From assembly GCF_034932065.1 (NCBI RefSeq), contig NZ_JAYGHP010000002.1, forward strand, positions 186,001 to 250,000: a DNA stretch of 64,000 bases, read 5' to 3'. This DNA comes from Crocosphaera sp. UHCC 0190 (GTDB lineage Bacteria > Cyanobacteriota > Cyanobacteriia > Cyanobacteriales > Microcystaceae). Made by a program: the position numbers and the translations under genes. The notes beneath the pieces are model-generated. The model worked only from the letters and a program-made list of their open reading frames with translations, was not told the DNA's origin and did no database searches. Positions within the stretch are counted from its first letter, which is position 1; each line of letters begins with the position of its first letter. Shown here in pieces: positions 2,585 through 5,650 of the stretch.

Positions 2585-3250
2585 ATGAATGATCGAGATA
2601 ACCCTAAAATCCGAGATAAAGTACAATTGACCCAACCAGAGCAACTATATCAAATTAGAGATAAAGAGGGAAACATTATTGATTTAGAACAAGCGAACGG
2701 GAGAGAACTTTTTAATCATTATCGTCATAATGTAACTAATTATGATCAAGTTCTTGATAATCGTCGTGATCAACAAGGTTATGTAACAGGAAGACAAGAA
2801 AAAGAAGCGGTTATTGGTGCTGCGGAACAAGTTCTTGAAAAATATCGAGATGAACATATCAAAGTTATTAAAGATGGTCAAAAAAAAGGAGCTTTAATAA
2901 AGCAATGGTTCGATAAAGTAGGAGTCGGTACTGCATTAGCTTTTACTCATCTTCTTGATTCCTGGTCAGAAAAAATTAAAGAAGTCGCTAAACTGCAAAA
3001 TAGCCAACGAACTTTACAAACCTGGAATGATACCTATCGAGTACAGAGAGAACTGGTTAAAAAACTCCTAAAAGATGAAGAAGTCTCTGAAGAAATTATC
3101 GAAAAAGTCAATAAAATATATAGCACTCGTTCAGTAAATAAAGTGGTTGAATTAGGTACAGATTTATTTGATTTAAAAAAATCTGAAATGCTAAAATTAG
3201 TTAAATCTGCAATCAGATATGCAAAACTAAATGAAGAGAGTAAATCATGA
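2585..3250 (+). CDS. Hypothetical protein, first gene of a GIY-YIG unit
   Basis: A 221-residue charged, soluble protein with no signal peptide or clear membrane segment. From about residue 75 it is mostly predicted helix, with heptad-like stretches such as EVAKLQNSQRTLQTW. I do not recognise the family. Its stop overlaps the start of the next gene (ATGA, 3247-3250), so the two are translationally coupled, and the third gene overlaps by one base. The unit is AT-rich and lies between ndhD and TA material, which suggests accessory DNA. The start at 2585 has no clear Shine-Dalgarno sequence. Confidence 0.6.
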   Translation: MNDRDNPKIRDKVQLTQPEQLYQIRDKEGNIIDLEQANGRELFNHYRHNVTNYDQVLDNRRDQQGYVTGRQEKEAVIGAAEQVLEKYRDEHIKVIKDGQKKGALIKQWFDKVGVGTALAFTHLLDSWSEKIKEVAKLQNSQRTLQTWNDTYRVQRELVKKLLKDEEVSEEIIEKVNKIYSTRSVNKVVELGTDLFDLKKSEMLKLVKSAIRYAKLNEESKS

Positions 3251-3585
3251 AATTACAAGAAATCAAGCAAAAAGTTTATCAATTGACTTGTACAAAAAAT
3301 ACAAAAATCTTAAAAAAACAACGTCCTGAACTGGTCAAAAATAGAGATTTGCGATACAAAATACAATGGATAGCGATTCTAGACGAAGTAAAACTCTTAC
3401 GAAGTCAAGGTCTAGATTTTTCCTTAACTGATTTAGAAGAATCCGAAAAAATGCTAAAAAAATCATTACTTACTGTTGGTCATTTGGCCGGTTTAAGTAA
3501 TGAAATGATTGAGCTTGACTGGCAACGAATTAAACTTGAAAACCAATTTACTGATATTCATGATATTCATATAGAGGAATTATAA
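3247..3585 (+). CDS. Hypothetical protein, second gene of a GIY-YIG unit
   Basis: A 112-residue lysine-rich protein, mostly predicted helix, with no motif I recognise. It starts inside the stop codon of the upstream gene (ATGA), and its own TAA shares one base with the ATG of the GIY-YIG gene. This tight packing implies the three products are made together and possibly act together. It could be a partner or an immunity-type protein for the nuclease-fold protein, but that is context-based inference only. Confidence 0.6.
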   Translation: MKLQEIKQKVYQLTCTKNTKILKKQRPELVKNRDLRYKIQWIAILDEVKLLRSQGLDFSLTDLEESEKMLKKSLLTVGHLAGLSNEMIELDWQRIKLENQFTDIHDIHIEEL

Positions 3586-3866
3586 TGAGAGTCTGTCTTA
3601 CTGAAATTGAGAAACTCCCACGGGTTAGTGGAATCTATAAAGTGATTGATTCTCAAAGTAAAGTAATTTATATTGGACAATCAAAAAATATTTACAAACG
3701 CTGGAAAAATGGCCATCATAAACTGGCTAAAATTGTTAGTGAATATGGAACAGATATTTATATTGAATGGGTTGAAATTCCTGAATGGTTACTTAATAGA
3801 GTAGAAAATACAGCAATTTCATTTTATCAACCTAAGCTAAATTCTAAACTTCCGCCTATTATATAA
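3585..3866 (+). CDS. Small GIY-YIG nuclease-fold protein
   Basis: A 93-residue protein that is essentially one GIY-YIG domain. GIYKVID (residues 17-23) and VIYIGQSKNIYKRW (about 28-41) give the two tyrosine/glycine signatures and the conserved arginine. ENTAISFYQPKLN near residue 72 supplies the metal-binding glutamate and the usual end of the fold. Catalytic residues therefore look intact. Members of the fold cut DNA in homing, repair, restriction or mobile elements. There is no separate DNA-binding domain, so specificity may come from the two upstream proteins. It ends 3 bases before the repeat that copies the nrtD tail. Confidence 0.8.
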   Translation: MRVCLTEIEKLPRVSGIYKVIDSQSKVIYIGQSKNIYKRWKNGHHKLAKIVSEYGTDIYIEWVEIPEWLLNRVENTAISFYQPKLNSKLPPII

Positions 3867-3869
3867 AAA

Positions 3870-4016
3870 AAGGTGCGCTAAAAACGCACCCAAACTCATG
3901 CAGATAAAGTTTAATTAATGATTAGGCCGCATCATCATCATGGGCAAAACGATTATAGAGGAAATCTAAAGCATAGTTGCGTAAATCGTAGTATTGGGGA
4001 TCTTCCATAATGCGAT
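3870..4016. repeat. Direct repeat A, copy 1 (duplicated nrtD 3' end)
   Basis: Aligns without gaps to 4741-4887 (offset 871) with about 10 mismatches in 147 bases. It contains the nrtD terminator hairpin and the last 31 codons of nrtD. Five differences fall in the non-coding third. Of the five coding differences four are synonymous and one changes His to Tyr. Together with copy 2 it brackets the RelE-type TA pair. Confidence 0.95.
3922..4016 (-). pseudogene. Orphan C-terminal fragment of nrtD
   Basis: Reads in frame to the stop as the NrtD tail (MEDPQYYDLRNYALDFLYN, then RFAHDDDAA), but lacks the rest of the gene and any start. Upstream of 4016 the sequence turns abruptly into unrelated intergenic DNA. 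It is a non-coding relic of the event that placed the TA pair here. Confidence 0.9.
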
Positions 4017-4043
4017 TATCGTTTAATATTTGTAAATTTTGCG

Positions 4044-4385
4044 TTAGTACGTTTCAAAATCGTTAATAATATCTTTAATTTGTTTAGCTGAAATATCCGT
4101 CTGATCTGACTTAGAATAAATAATAAGCATTAAAATGCACTGATTATTTTTAATTTGATAGATCACCCGATATCCCTCACTTTTTCCTTTTTGAATATCA
4201 CTATTTTTAAGACGAATTTTTAGCACAGTGTAACCTGTTCCTATGATTTGATCGCCGATAAAGTTACCAGACTGAAGTTCATCAATAAGTGGTTGTAAAT
4301 CTTTACGAATACTACGATAACGTTTAGCAAGTGTCCGAAGTCGTTCTTTAAATTCATCAGAGAAAAAAAGATTAATATCAGACAT
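4044..4385 (-). CDS. RelE/ParE-type toxin
   Basis: A 113-residue basic protein with the RelE/ParE order: an N-terminal helical pair (FKERLRTLAKRYRSIRKDL), then strands with LKIRLKNSD, GYRVIYQIKN and CILMLIIYSK. Such toxins cut mRNA at the ribosome or poison gyrase; which applies here is unclear. I place the start at 4385 rather than 4394, because ATGTCTGA then overlaps the antitoxin stop by 8 bases, a usual TA coupling. Antitoxin comes first, toxin second. The pair is bracketed by repeat A, so it probably arrived as a cassette. Confidence 0.8.
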   Translation of the reverse strand: MSDINLFFSDEFKERLRTLAKRYRSIRKDLQPLIDELQSGNFIGDQIIGTGYTVLKIRLKNSDIQKGKSEGYRVIYQIKNNQCILMLIIYSKSDQTDISAKQIKDIINDFETY

Positions 4386-4686
4386 CAATGCCATCCCATA
4401 ATTCAGAAATAGGATGAAGTTTTCCTTCTTTTACTTGTTGTAGAGAAGTCCGAAAACTAGCAATGATTAGCTCATTGTTTTCGTCATCATCATCTATCGG
4501 TGAACTTACAATATTCCGATTCGATAACAGTTGATAAAAATCATCATTTGTCATTCTGCTTAGTTGAGCAGCTTTTTCAAGGGGAATACGCTGTTGTTGA
4601 TAAAGCATTATGGCAATTTCTTTAAGCATTTCTATTTCAGTCATTTGGGCTGTTTCTAGAAGCTCAGTCGGTAAATTAATGCTCAT
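4378..4686 (-). CDS. Antitoxin partner of the RelE/ParE-type toxin
   Basis: A 102-residue acidic protein beginning MSINLPTELLETAQMTE, with a UPF0175-like helical N-terminus (EIAIMLYQQQRIPLEKAAQLSRM, a possible DNA-binding unit). An acidic linker (SPIDDDDENNE) and a C-terminal segment that probably wraps the toxin follow. I prefer the ATG at 4686: the longer frame upstream would add a hydrophobic, unlike extension that runs into the nrtD terminator. Autoregulation by the antitoxin-toxin complex is usual; I found no obvious operator. Confidence 0.72.
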   Translation of the reverse strand: MSINLPTELLETAQMTEIEMLKEIAIMLYQQQRIPLEKAAQLSRMTNDDFYQLLSNRNIVSSPIDDDDENNELIIASFRTSLQQVKEGKLHPISELWDGIDV

Positions 4687-4736
4687 AATAGTAAATAGTA
4701 TAATATAGTTATCCTTATACCAATATAGAAGAAAAA

Positions 4737-4761
4737 TAAAAAGGTGCGTGGAGAACGCACC
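4737..4761 (-). terminator. Rho-independent terminator of nrtABCD
   Basis: Stem GGTGCG/CGCACC with a short loop. On the minus strand it is followed by a run of T residues. It lies 32 bases past the nrtD stop. The duplicate at 3870-3890 keeps the stem and has a longer T run, so it can end the TA transcript from the right and, with weaker flanks, the GIY-YIG unit from the left. Confidence 0.8.
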
Positions 4762-4887
4762 CAAACTCATGCAGATAACGTTTAATTAATGATTAGGCCG
4801 CATCATCATCATGGGCAAAACGATTATAAAGGAAATCTAAAGCATGGTTCCGTAAATCGTAATATTGAGGATCTTCCATAATGCGAT
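4741..4887. repeat. Direct repeat A, copy 2 (within and behind nrtD)
   Basis: The resident copy: the nrtD terminator plus its last 31 codons. Identity with copy 1 ends at 4887, inside the HIP1 octamer GCGATCGC at 4883-4890. Confidence 0.95.
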
Positions 4888-5650
4888 CGCGGTCACGGGG
4901 ACGAGGGAAGGGAATAGTCATAATTTCTCCGATCGCAGCGGCCGGCCCATTGGTCATCATAACGAGACGATCAGCAAGGAATAACGCCTCATCAATATCA
5001 TGGGTAATCATTAACACTGTACAACGGTGATCATTCCAAATTTTAAGCAATTCTTCCTGTAATTCCTCTTTGGTGATGGCATCTAACGCCCCAAAAGGTT
5101 CATCTAAGATTAACACTTCTGGCCGAATAGCAAGGGCCCGGGCAATAGAAACCCGTTGTTTCATCCCCCCAGAAATTTGCGTCGGTTTCTTGGTTTCTGC
5201 TTCCGTTAAACCCACCATTGCTAGATGATCCCGTACAATACCCCGTTTTTCTGCTTCTCGCTTGTTAGGACTCACTGCATCGACCGCTAAATAGACATTT
5301 TCAAACACGGTTAACCAAGGAAGTAGGGCATAATTTTGGAATACTACCATGCGATCGGGGCCGGGTTTCGTAACAGGTTTACCATTAACTAAAACCGATC
5401 CATTTGTCGGAGTGGCAAACCCTGAAACCATATTTAAAAGGGTCGATTTTCCACAACCAGAATGACCAATTACACAGATAAATTCCCCATCTTTAACGGT
5501 TAAATTAACATCTTTTAATACTGTATACGGCCCTTTAGGAGTGGGATAAACTTTACTGACGTTTTCGATAACAACAGACAGATTATTATTCATAGTTGGT
5601 TGAGGTTTCAGGTTCAAAGTTTTCGGGTTTTGAGATTTGATACTTTGCAT
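4793..5650 (-). CDS. nrtD: Nitrate/nitrite ABC transporter ATPase NrtD
   Basis: Second ATP-binding subunit of the high-affinity nitrate/nitrite importer, pairing with NrtC under the NrtB membrane dimer. Walker A GHSGCGKST, signature SGGMKQRVSIARALA, Walker B VLILDEPFGALD and the H-loop MITHDIDEA are all present. I keep the start at 5650 because GGAGA lies about 7 bases upstream; the ATG at 5593 gives a more family-typical N-terminus (MNNNLSVVIENVSKVYP) but has no ribosome-binding site. Last gene of the operon. Its 3' end is the target duplicated in repeat A. Confidence 0.93.
   Translation of the reverse strand: MQSIKSQNPKTLNLKPQPTMNNNLSVVIENVSKVYPTPKGPYTVLKDVNLTVKDGEFICVIGHSGCGKSTLLNMVSGFATPTNGSVLVNGKPVTKPGPDRMVVFQNYALLPWLTVFENVYLAVDAVSPNKREAEKRGIVRDHLAMVGLTEAETKKPTQISGGMKQRVSIARALAIRPEVLILDEPFGALDAITKEELQEELLKIWNDHRCTVLMITHDIDEALFLADRLVMMTNGPAAAIGEIMTIPFPRPRDRDRIMEDPQYYDLRNHALDFLYNRFAHDDDAA

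Follow-up and report, generated by a model that had tools for sequence, protein, structure and literature searches.

Three overlapping genes in the genome of Crocosphaera sp. UHCC 0190, here called A, B and C, may encode a single nuclease complex in which A and B target and restrain C, and C would cut DNA, most likely invading or abnormal DNA. We regard this reading as evenly balanced between right and wrong. It is based on the order of the genes and its conservation, on the domain homologies, on the intact active-site residues of C, and on the different types of nuclease that are encoded beside relatives of the B domain.

Gene layout and genomic surroundings

Gene A (positions 2585–3250 of the window, the whole stretch of 64,000 nucleotides that was analysed) encodes a helical protein of 221 amino acids, gene B (3247–3585) a helical protein of 112 amino acids, and gene C (3585–3866) a protein of 93 amino acids that is a stand-alone GIY-YIG domain with intact signature residues. 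All three are on the forward strand, and neither A nor B belongs to a curated family. The open reading frame coordinates confirm the original prediction that the genes overlap, by 4 nucleotides between A and B and by 1 nucleotide between B and C, and the three proteins would be made together. The search for promoters gave no support for the trio, with 14 promoter-like sites found against 13.3 expected.

The trio had been described as lying in variable DNA, which agrees with its AT-rich composition: the G+C content is 31.1% compared to 38.7% for the window, ranking 9 out of 628 overlapping stretches of the same length. Its neighbours in the window are ndhD, a toxin-antitoxin-like pair and the nrt genes, and no adjoining transposase or integrase gene was noticed when the open reading frame maps were inspected by eye.

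At the base right after C, as had been noted before, begins a direct repeat of 150 bp, with copies at 3867–4016 and 4738–4887 that are 93% identical. The second copy is the 3′ end of an intact nrtD gene (4793–5650, reverse strand) and carries a terminator at 4742–4762. The first, which abuts C, is what remains of a second nrtD 3′ end. It has a leftward terminator at 3871–3891 and is probably not part of the trio system. Between the copies lie a UPF0175 gene (4378–4770) and a RelE/ParE-like gene (4044–4394), both on the reverse strand, the latter with a match slightly under the Pfam cut-offs. The arrangement is that of a toxin-antitoxin-like insertion by which the end of nrtD was rebuilt, and the 150 bp with the terminator are now present twice.

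Conservation and loss of C

Full-length A is found in 2 of 50 genomes of the family (the present genome and G022). In the order it is found in 9 of 388 genomes, and 3 further genomes among the 388 contain only the C-terminal part. A single-sequence search with A across a sample of the phylum matched 3 of 386 genomes, namely the present genome, one C-terminal match and one match that looks like chance. Full-length A is also present in two named contigs, including L002, which equals the G445 contig in length (17,200) and in its protein scores; the total is 10 distinct loci, carrying the family labels f1, f10, f11, f44 and f57 together with L001, a MAG labelled Pseudanabaenales. Hits in G259 and G166 look like chance.

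B follows A in all ten of these loci and C follows B in eight. The trio is a conserved unit, and the outcome named originally as a refutation, a trio that is not conserved, did not arise. Of the two exceptions, L001 has no C downstream of B, and in L024 (9213–9390) C breaks off after about 12 codons and gives way to a short inverted-repeat element. Similar copies of this element occur in L022 and L128, and it appears MITE-like by eye. In L023 the open reading frame caller starts at an internal codon of C because the usual start codon is ATA there.

For the pair L022 and L024, the only one that is not saturated (dS about 0.5), A has a dN/dS of 0.26 and B of 0.22; the other computable pairs give 0.06–0.17, but at dS above 1. 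In a tree of A and B together only L022 with L024 (100) and L026 with L027 (99) form strong nodes, and the deep nodes of the A, B and C trees are weak.

Since two loci keep A and B without C, A–B may act alone. The loss of C from L024 and L001 is also the direction expected if a toxin goes first, and an alternative is that the trio resembles a toxin-antitoxin system in which C is a nuclease toxin that A and/or B keep inactive. The tight overlap with the nuclease gene in last place fits such an arrangement, as does the outcome of the C-profile search of 29 genomes, in which no trio-type C appeared without A–B. However, two upstream partners and a separate family in which B is joined to DnaJ would be unusual for a simple pair, and none of the proteins matches a toxin or antitoxin family; we consider a toxin role improbable.

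Spread and mobility

In L022 and L024, which belong to one genus, homology extends only from 38 nucleotides before A to 35 nucleotides into C, short repeated sequences being disregarded, and the left neighbour of L022 is found in G529 (L130) with no trio next to it. The trio of family f11 adjoins acnB in two genera (L023, L026, L027). Among the 13 genomes of genus g29 it lies beside acnB in 2, while the stretches from 3 others end at contig ends, and in G118 the flanking genes on the acnB side are kept and the trio is absent. From the constant acnB site in f11 and the cassette-only homology of L022 and L024, it appears that the trio has in some lineages been inherited at one site and in others occurs by itself at a new one. 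In two f11 genera the trio has a divergent neighbour, a gene of no known family that encodes 180 or 183 amino acids (L023, 7967–8509; L027, 8559–9110).

These patterns bear on whether the trio could be a selfish cassette, in which C would cut an empty site and the cassette would then be copied into it in the manner of free-standing homing endonucleases, with sequence specificity supplied by A and B. The sporadic distribution, the AT-rich composition, the confinement of the L022/L024 homology to the cassette and the trio-free acnB neighbourhood of G118 are all in keeping with this. On the other side, the flanks inspected showed neither a common insertion sequence nor a target duplication, the f11 trio stays beside acnB in two genera, the HNH and DnaJ relatives described below look like resident operons, and the flanks of L024 are too rearranged to offer a clean comparison with an empty site. 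Homing endonucleases join a catalytic domain to a DNA-binding domain and occupy one homologous insertion site, whereas C is the catalytic domain alone and the neighbours of the trio differ at most loci, with a shared site within family f11 only. We think it rather unlikely that the trio is such a cassette.

Searches of phages and plasmids returned no A at an E-value of 0.1, and plasmids contained no B at 0.01, nor any of three B relatives. Pattern scans of viral contigs, which have low sensitivity, found neither A nor B. The matches to C in these collections are distant GIY-YIG relatives only, in 37 plasmid records, all below 60% identity, and 1 phage.

The GIY-YIG protein

C scores above the cut-off of the Pfam GIY-YIG family (PF01541; 29.7 against 22.6 bits) over residues 16–79 of 93. 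A match that fills so much of the protein leaves no room for a DNA-binding domain, as had been anticipated. The signature residues, expected to be intact, are so throughout: G16, Y18, Y29, G31, R39, H44, H45, E74 and N86 are identical in all eight C proteins, and we take the catalytic roles of Y18, Y29, G31, R39, E74 and N86 to be those of the GIY-YIG family. Judged from its sequence, C belongs to the GIY-YIG superfamily and is a predicted nuclease.

Among solved structures the best relatives of C are UvrC (1yd6, E 4.1e-5), the N-terminal domain of glutaredoxin-S16 (2lwf, 2.4e-4) and I-TevI (1mk0, 2.8e-4). It matches the NCBIfam UvrC model TIGR00194 with an E-value of 1.5e-7, far under the cut-off, and gives weak matches to PADLOC-DB 2.0.0, the best (E 3.2e-4) being to a homing endonuclease model. 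When 29 cyanobacterial genomes were searched with the C profile, its nearer relatives proved to be domains within larger proteins. The present genome has four GIY-YIG matches, comprising the trio's own C, a protein of UvrC-like length and two larger proteins. Outside the trio, L048–L051 include proteins of approximately 350–530 amino acids in which an N-terminal GIY-YIG domain, among the nearer relatives of C, is followed by a C-terminal part of unknown type.

The UvrC matches could indicate that the trio forms a DNA repair or recombination complex that works on branched or damaged host DNA, and it is chromosomal and often located beside housekeeping genes. Set against this is its rarity: with full-length A in so few genomes of the order (9/388), the trio is unlike a housekeeping repair system, and a function in repair seems to us of low probability.

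Family searches and domain make-up of A and B

A and B were searched against Pfam, PADLOC, PHROGs and NCBIfam, and no family scored above cut-off, so that both remain unrecognised as predicted and neither could be placed in a known unrelated family. For A the best Pfam E-value was 0.013 and for B 0.27, both below cut-off, and neither had a PADLOC match. The lowest E-values for A were 0.0031 to PHROG 14432 and 0.0022 to the Pfam bAvd-like family, the latter in one of ten members. DUF2293 (PF10056) was considered for A and rejected, with weak matches in 6 of 10 A proteins (best E 0.019) that fall below the 25-bit cut-off. DUF2293 itself was found in none of 13 genomes, including the present one, with a sub-threshold match in the Synechococcus elongatus control, and there was no mention of it in the literature searched. 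The best match of A to a solved structure has an E-value of 0.095. B gave 12 matches to designed armadillo repeat proteins (best E 4.1e-10), but no stretch passed alone; we take the scores to be sums over repeats and not a sign of homology, and this assignment was also rejected. The structure models are poor, with a mean pLDDT of 56.5 for A and 62.0 for B.

The N-terminal region of A (residues 9–67, positions 2609–2785, forward strand) is a domain with the motif RHxxTNYD, which hhalign finds in common with stand-alone coiled-coil proteins; it is homologous to the RHxxTNYD proteins of L171, L179, L038 and L203 (A4 against A14, probability 94.8, E 5.5e-8). This group in turn matches (E 1.3e-7) a further RHxxTNYD group, the members of which are paired with B-like proteins of 131–136 amino acids. 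Aligned directly with this further group (A4–A8), A shares only an 11-residue motif (E 0.0011). The C-terminal domain of A (residues about 131–215, positions 2975–3229, forward strand), where tblastn and profile matches cover residues 131–213, is related (hhalign, E 1e-17) to proteins of 165 and 171 amino acids in L007 (8781–9278, reverse strand) and L028 (8047–8562, forward strand), which belong to another coiled-coil gene pair. Since both domains are found separately in other coiled-coil gene pairs, A appears to be a two-domain fusion. A relationship of A to the partners of 143–165 amino acids found with some B genes was rejected, as hhalign gives an E-value of 0.023 and only a short motif is alike.

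B begins with an adaptor-like domain (residues 1–49, positions 3247–3393, forward strand) that recurs upstream of GIY-YIG and HNH genes elsewhere. Its first 48 residues or so are homologous to the start of the proteins of 131–136 amino acids (hhalign, E 5.7e-9), the genes of which lie directly downstream of the RHxxTNYD coiled-coil genes, and profile comparison also relates trio B to the B region of a DnaJ-linked family (E 5.7e-7).

Several observations were made on these relatives. In L203 a B-like protein (3961–4626, reverse strand) is followed by an open reading frame of 623 amino acids that combines, by eye, an RHxxTNYD domain with a coiled coil and a sigma-70-like part. In L041 (6018–6700; G212, a single-contig genome) the B-like gene of an RHxxTNYD pair is frame-broken near its start. 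In family f3 the RHxxTNYD–B pairs of L148, L149, L151, L152, L155 and L157 adjoin, by eye, the same putative GTPase gene, most with a pyrB-like gene on the other side, and because of these constant neighbours the pairs look resident and not mobile.

Modularity of the B domain

A profile built from 14 sequences of the B domain was searched against 349 genomes of the order at E-values up to 0.01. The domain, which is approximately 50 residues long, occurs in 68 of these genomes at 72 places, and for 57 of the places we examined the next gene on the strand. This gene encodes a GIY-YIG protein in 8 cases, an HNH protein of about 150 amino acids in 4, and an HNH-like protein of 327–347 amino acids in 18. 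At the other 27 places it is of none of these types, and to these belong the RHxxTNYD–B pairs and the L024 remnant. The same three nuclease profiles gave no match in 11 control loci (168 kb). As the profiles themselves derive from genes neighbouring B, these counts show recurrence and not independent discovery.

The shorter HNH proteins come from L147, L150, L158 and L162. HNH matches exceed the Pfam cut-off in L147 (E 8.6e-9) and L162 (6.5e-7) and fall below it in L158 (9.9e-4) and L150 (0.029), and the residues CxxC, DH, N and CxxC are conserved in all four. The longer group is HNH-like by motif only, with conserved C, HH, N and H; Pfam HNH_2 was matched in one of 14 proteins scanned, below cut-off (E 0.048). 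A DnaJ-type domain with the motif YHPDN is joined to B at 20 places (in L167 it matches Pfam DnaJ with an E-value of 9.4e-8), and 18 of these fused genes precede a gene of the longer HNH-like group. Pairs of this kind are widespread (L164, L167–L170, L174–L178, L181, L182, L184, L185, L190–L192, L195).

The occurrence of B-domain relatives beside unrelated nucleases suggests an adaptor able to carry different cutting enzymes. We put forward, tentatively and as something short of an even prospect, that these operons represent a new modular class of nuclease complex, so far in cyanobacteria, with a coiled-coil targeting subunit and a B-domain adaptor into which GIY-YIG or HNH nucleases were plugged independently, some with a DnaJ domain that would recruit chaperones, acting against foreign DNA.

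The same survey bears on the idea that the system proper consists of A–B, as a coiled-coil pair with a structural or regulatory role, for which a nuclease is an occasional accessory. A–B without C at 2 of 10 loci would be expected from this, and so would the RHxxTNYD–B pairs, which account for 8 of the 57 places and lack a recognised nuclease (six of them, by eye, beside the putative GTPase gene), the fusion of B to DnaJ and the apparent fusion of RHxxTNYD to a sigma factor in L203. Yet C follows A–B in 8 of 10 loci across several families with its catalytic residues conserved, and different nuclease types recur beside B. That the nuclease is a mere accessory is in our view doubtful.

Proposed mechanism

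In the nuclease complex that we favour, C would be the catalytic subunit by virtue of its GIY-YIG domain, and A, a long helical protein, would be the sensor or targeting part. Since C has no binding domain, A and B would direct it to its target and restrain it, and since it has no targeting domain of its own, specificity probably resides in its partners, as first proposed. The N-terminal domain of B, approximately 50 residues, would couple the complex to whichever nuclease gene comes next, and the likely use would be the cutting of invading or abnormal DNA. The model fits operons in which a variable helical partner, a small adaptor domain and an interchangeable nuclease are encoded by genes that overlap or almost do. 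A physical complex, this division of labour, DNA as the substrate and a role against invaders are what we infer. The points that speak against the model are the 27 of 57 B places without a recognised nuclease, the A–B pairs without C in L001 and L024, and the weak start of C in L023.

Many neighbours of the trio are housekeeping genes. Counted as families and not as matches per protein, PADLOC families matched by proteins from the flanks number 149 (96 of 96 proteins), compared to 39 for control proteins (96 of 129, those left out being mainly from L123 and L124); 61 of the 149 come from one AAA protein in L022, which adjoins a DUF4276 gene, and the matches of the control set include an Argonaute. 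Family totals of this sort give no clean comparison of the two sets. A role against invading DNA is plausible, and the overall reading given originally, of a minimal defence or mobile-element system, is partly supported: the recurring unit, the unmatched A and B and, probably, specificity borne by the partners are the parts that stand.

Relation to known systems and significance

C resembles the GIY-YIG superfamily, which includes the N-terminal domain of UvrC and the catalytic domain of I-TevI, in scoring above cut-off with an intact catalytic pattern, but differs in having no second domain, and in the searches made A and B are not known GIY-YIG partners. Two anti-phage systems can also be compared. 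SNIPE, a membrane-bound anti-phage nuclease, combines DUF4041 with GIY-YIG, and CMoRE, or PD-T4-3, is a GIY-YIG type IV restriction enzyme (PMC13190303, PMC12923530). In SNIPE parts that are not catalytic guide the GIY-YIG nuclease, and one of them helps it to bind DNA (PMC13190303), but SNIPE is one polypeptide that carries DUF4041 and a transmembrane segment, whereas A, B and C have no DUF4041 match. CMoRE likewise combines a GIY-YIG effector with a recognition domain that belongs to no known family (PMC12923530), but has one component with the recognition domain on the same chain, and no PADLOC match ties it to C. Both are a precedent for GIY-YIG acting against phage when joined to a recognition or binding domain, and neither matches the trio.

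Against the component models of PADLOC-DB 2.0.0 A and B have no matches and C has weak ones, which does not identify a known anti-phage system. Nor does the trio resemble restriction-modification, as the window's open reading frame list has no adjacent methyltransferase gene and the only methyltransferase-type match of A is to PF12692 (13.8 bits against a cut-off of 27, E 0.059). The RHxxTNYD–B pairs, the B–HNH operons and the B–DnaJ/HNH-like pairs share the N-terminal domain of A, the B domain or both with the trio, but have another nuclease or none, and other upstream partners. The literature searched, with most subscription journals outside its coverage, contains no description of the trio operon, and we found in it no name or description for these relatives.

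The antiviral repertoire of cyanobacteria is less explored than that of enterobacteria. If the proposed reading is true, a small uncharacterised domain would mark nuclease operons across cyanobacteria, with the same adaptor serving unrelated nuclease folds, and would give a handle for finding further members by their neighbourhood. It would also provide a handle for testing how separate proteins direct a GIY-YIG domain that has no other domain attached.
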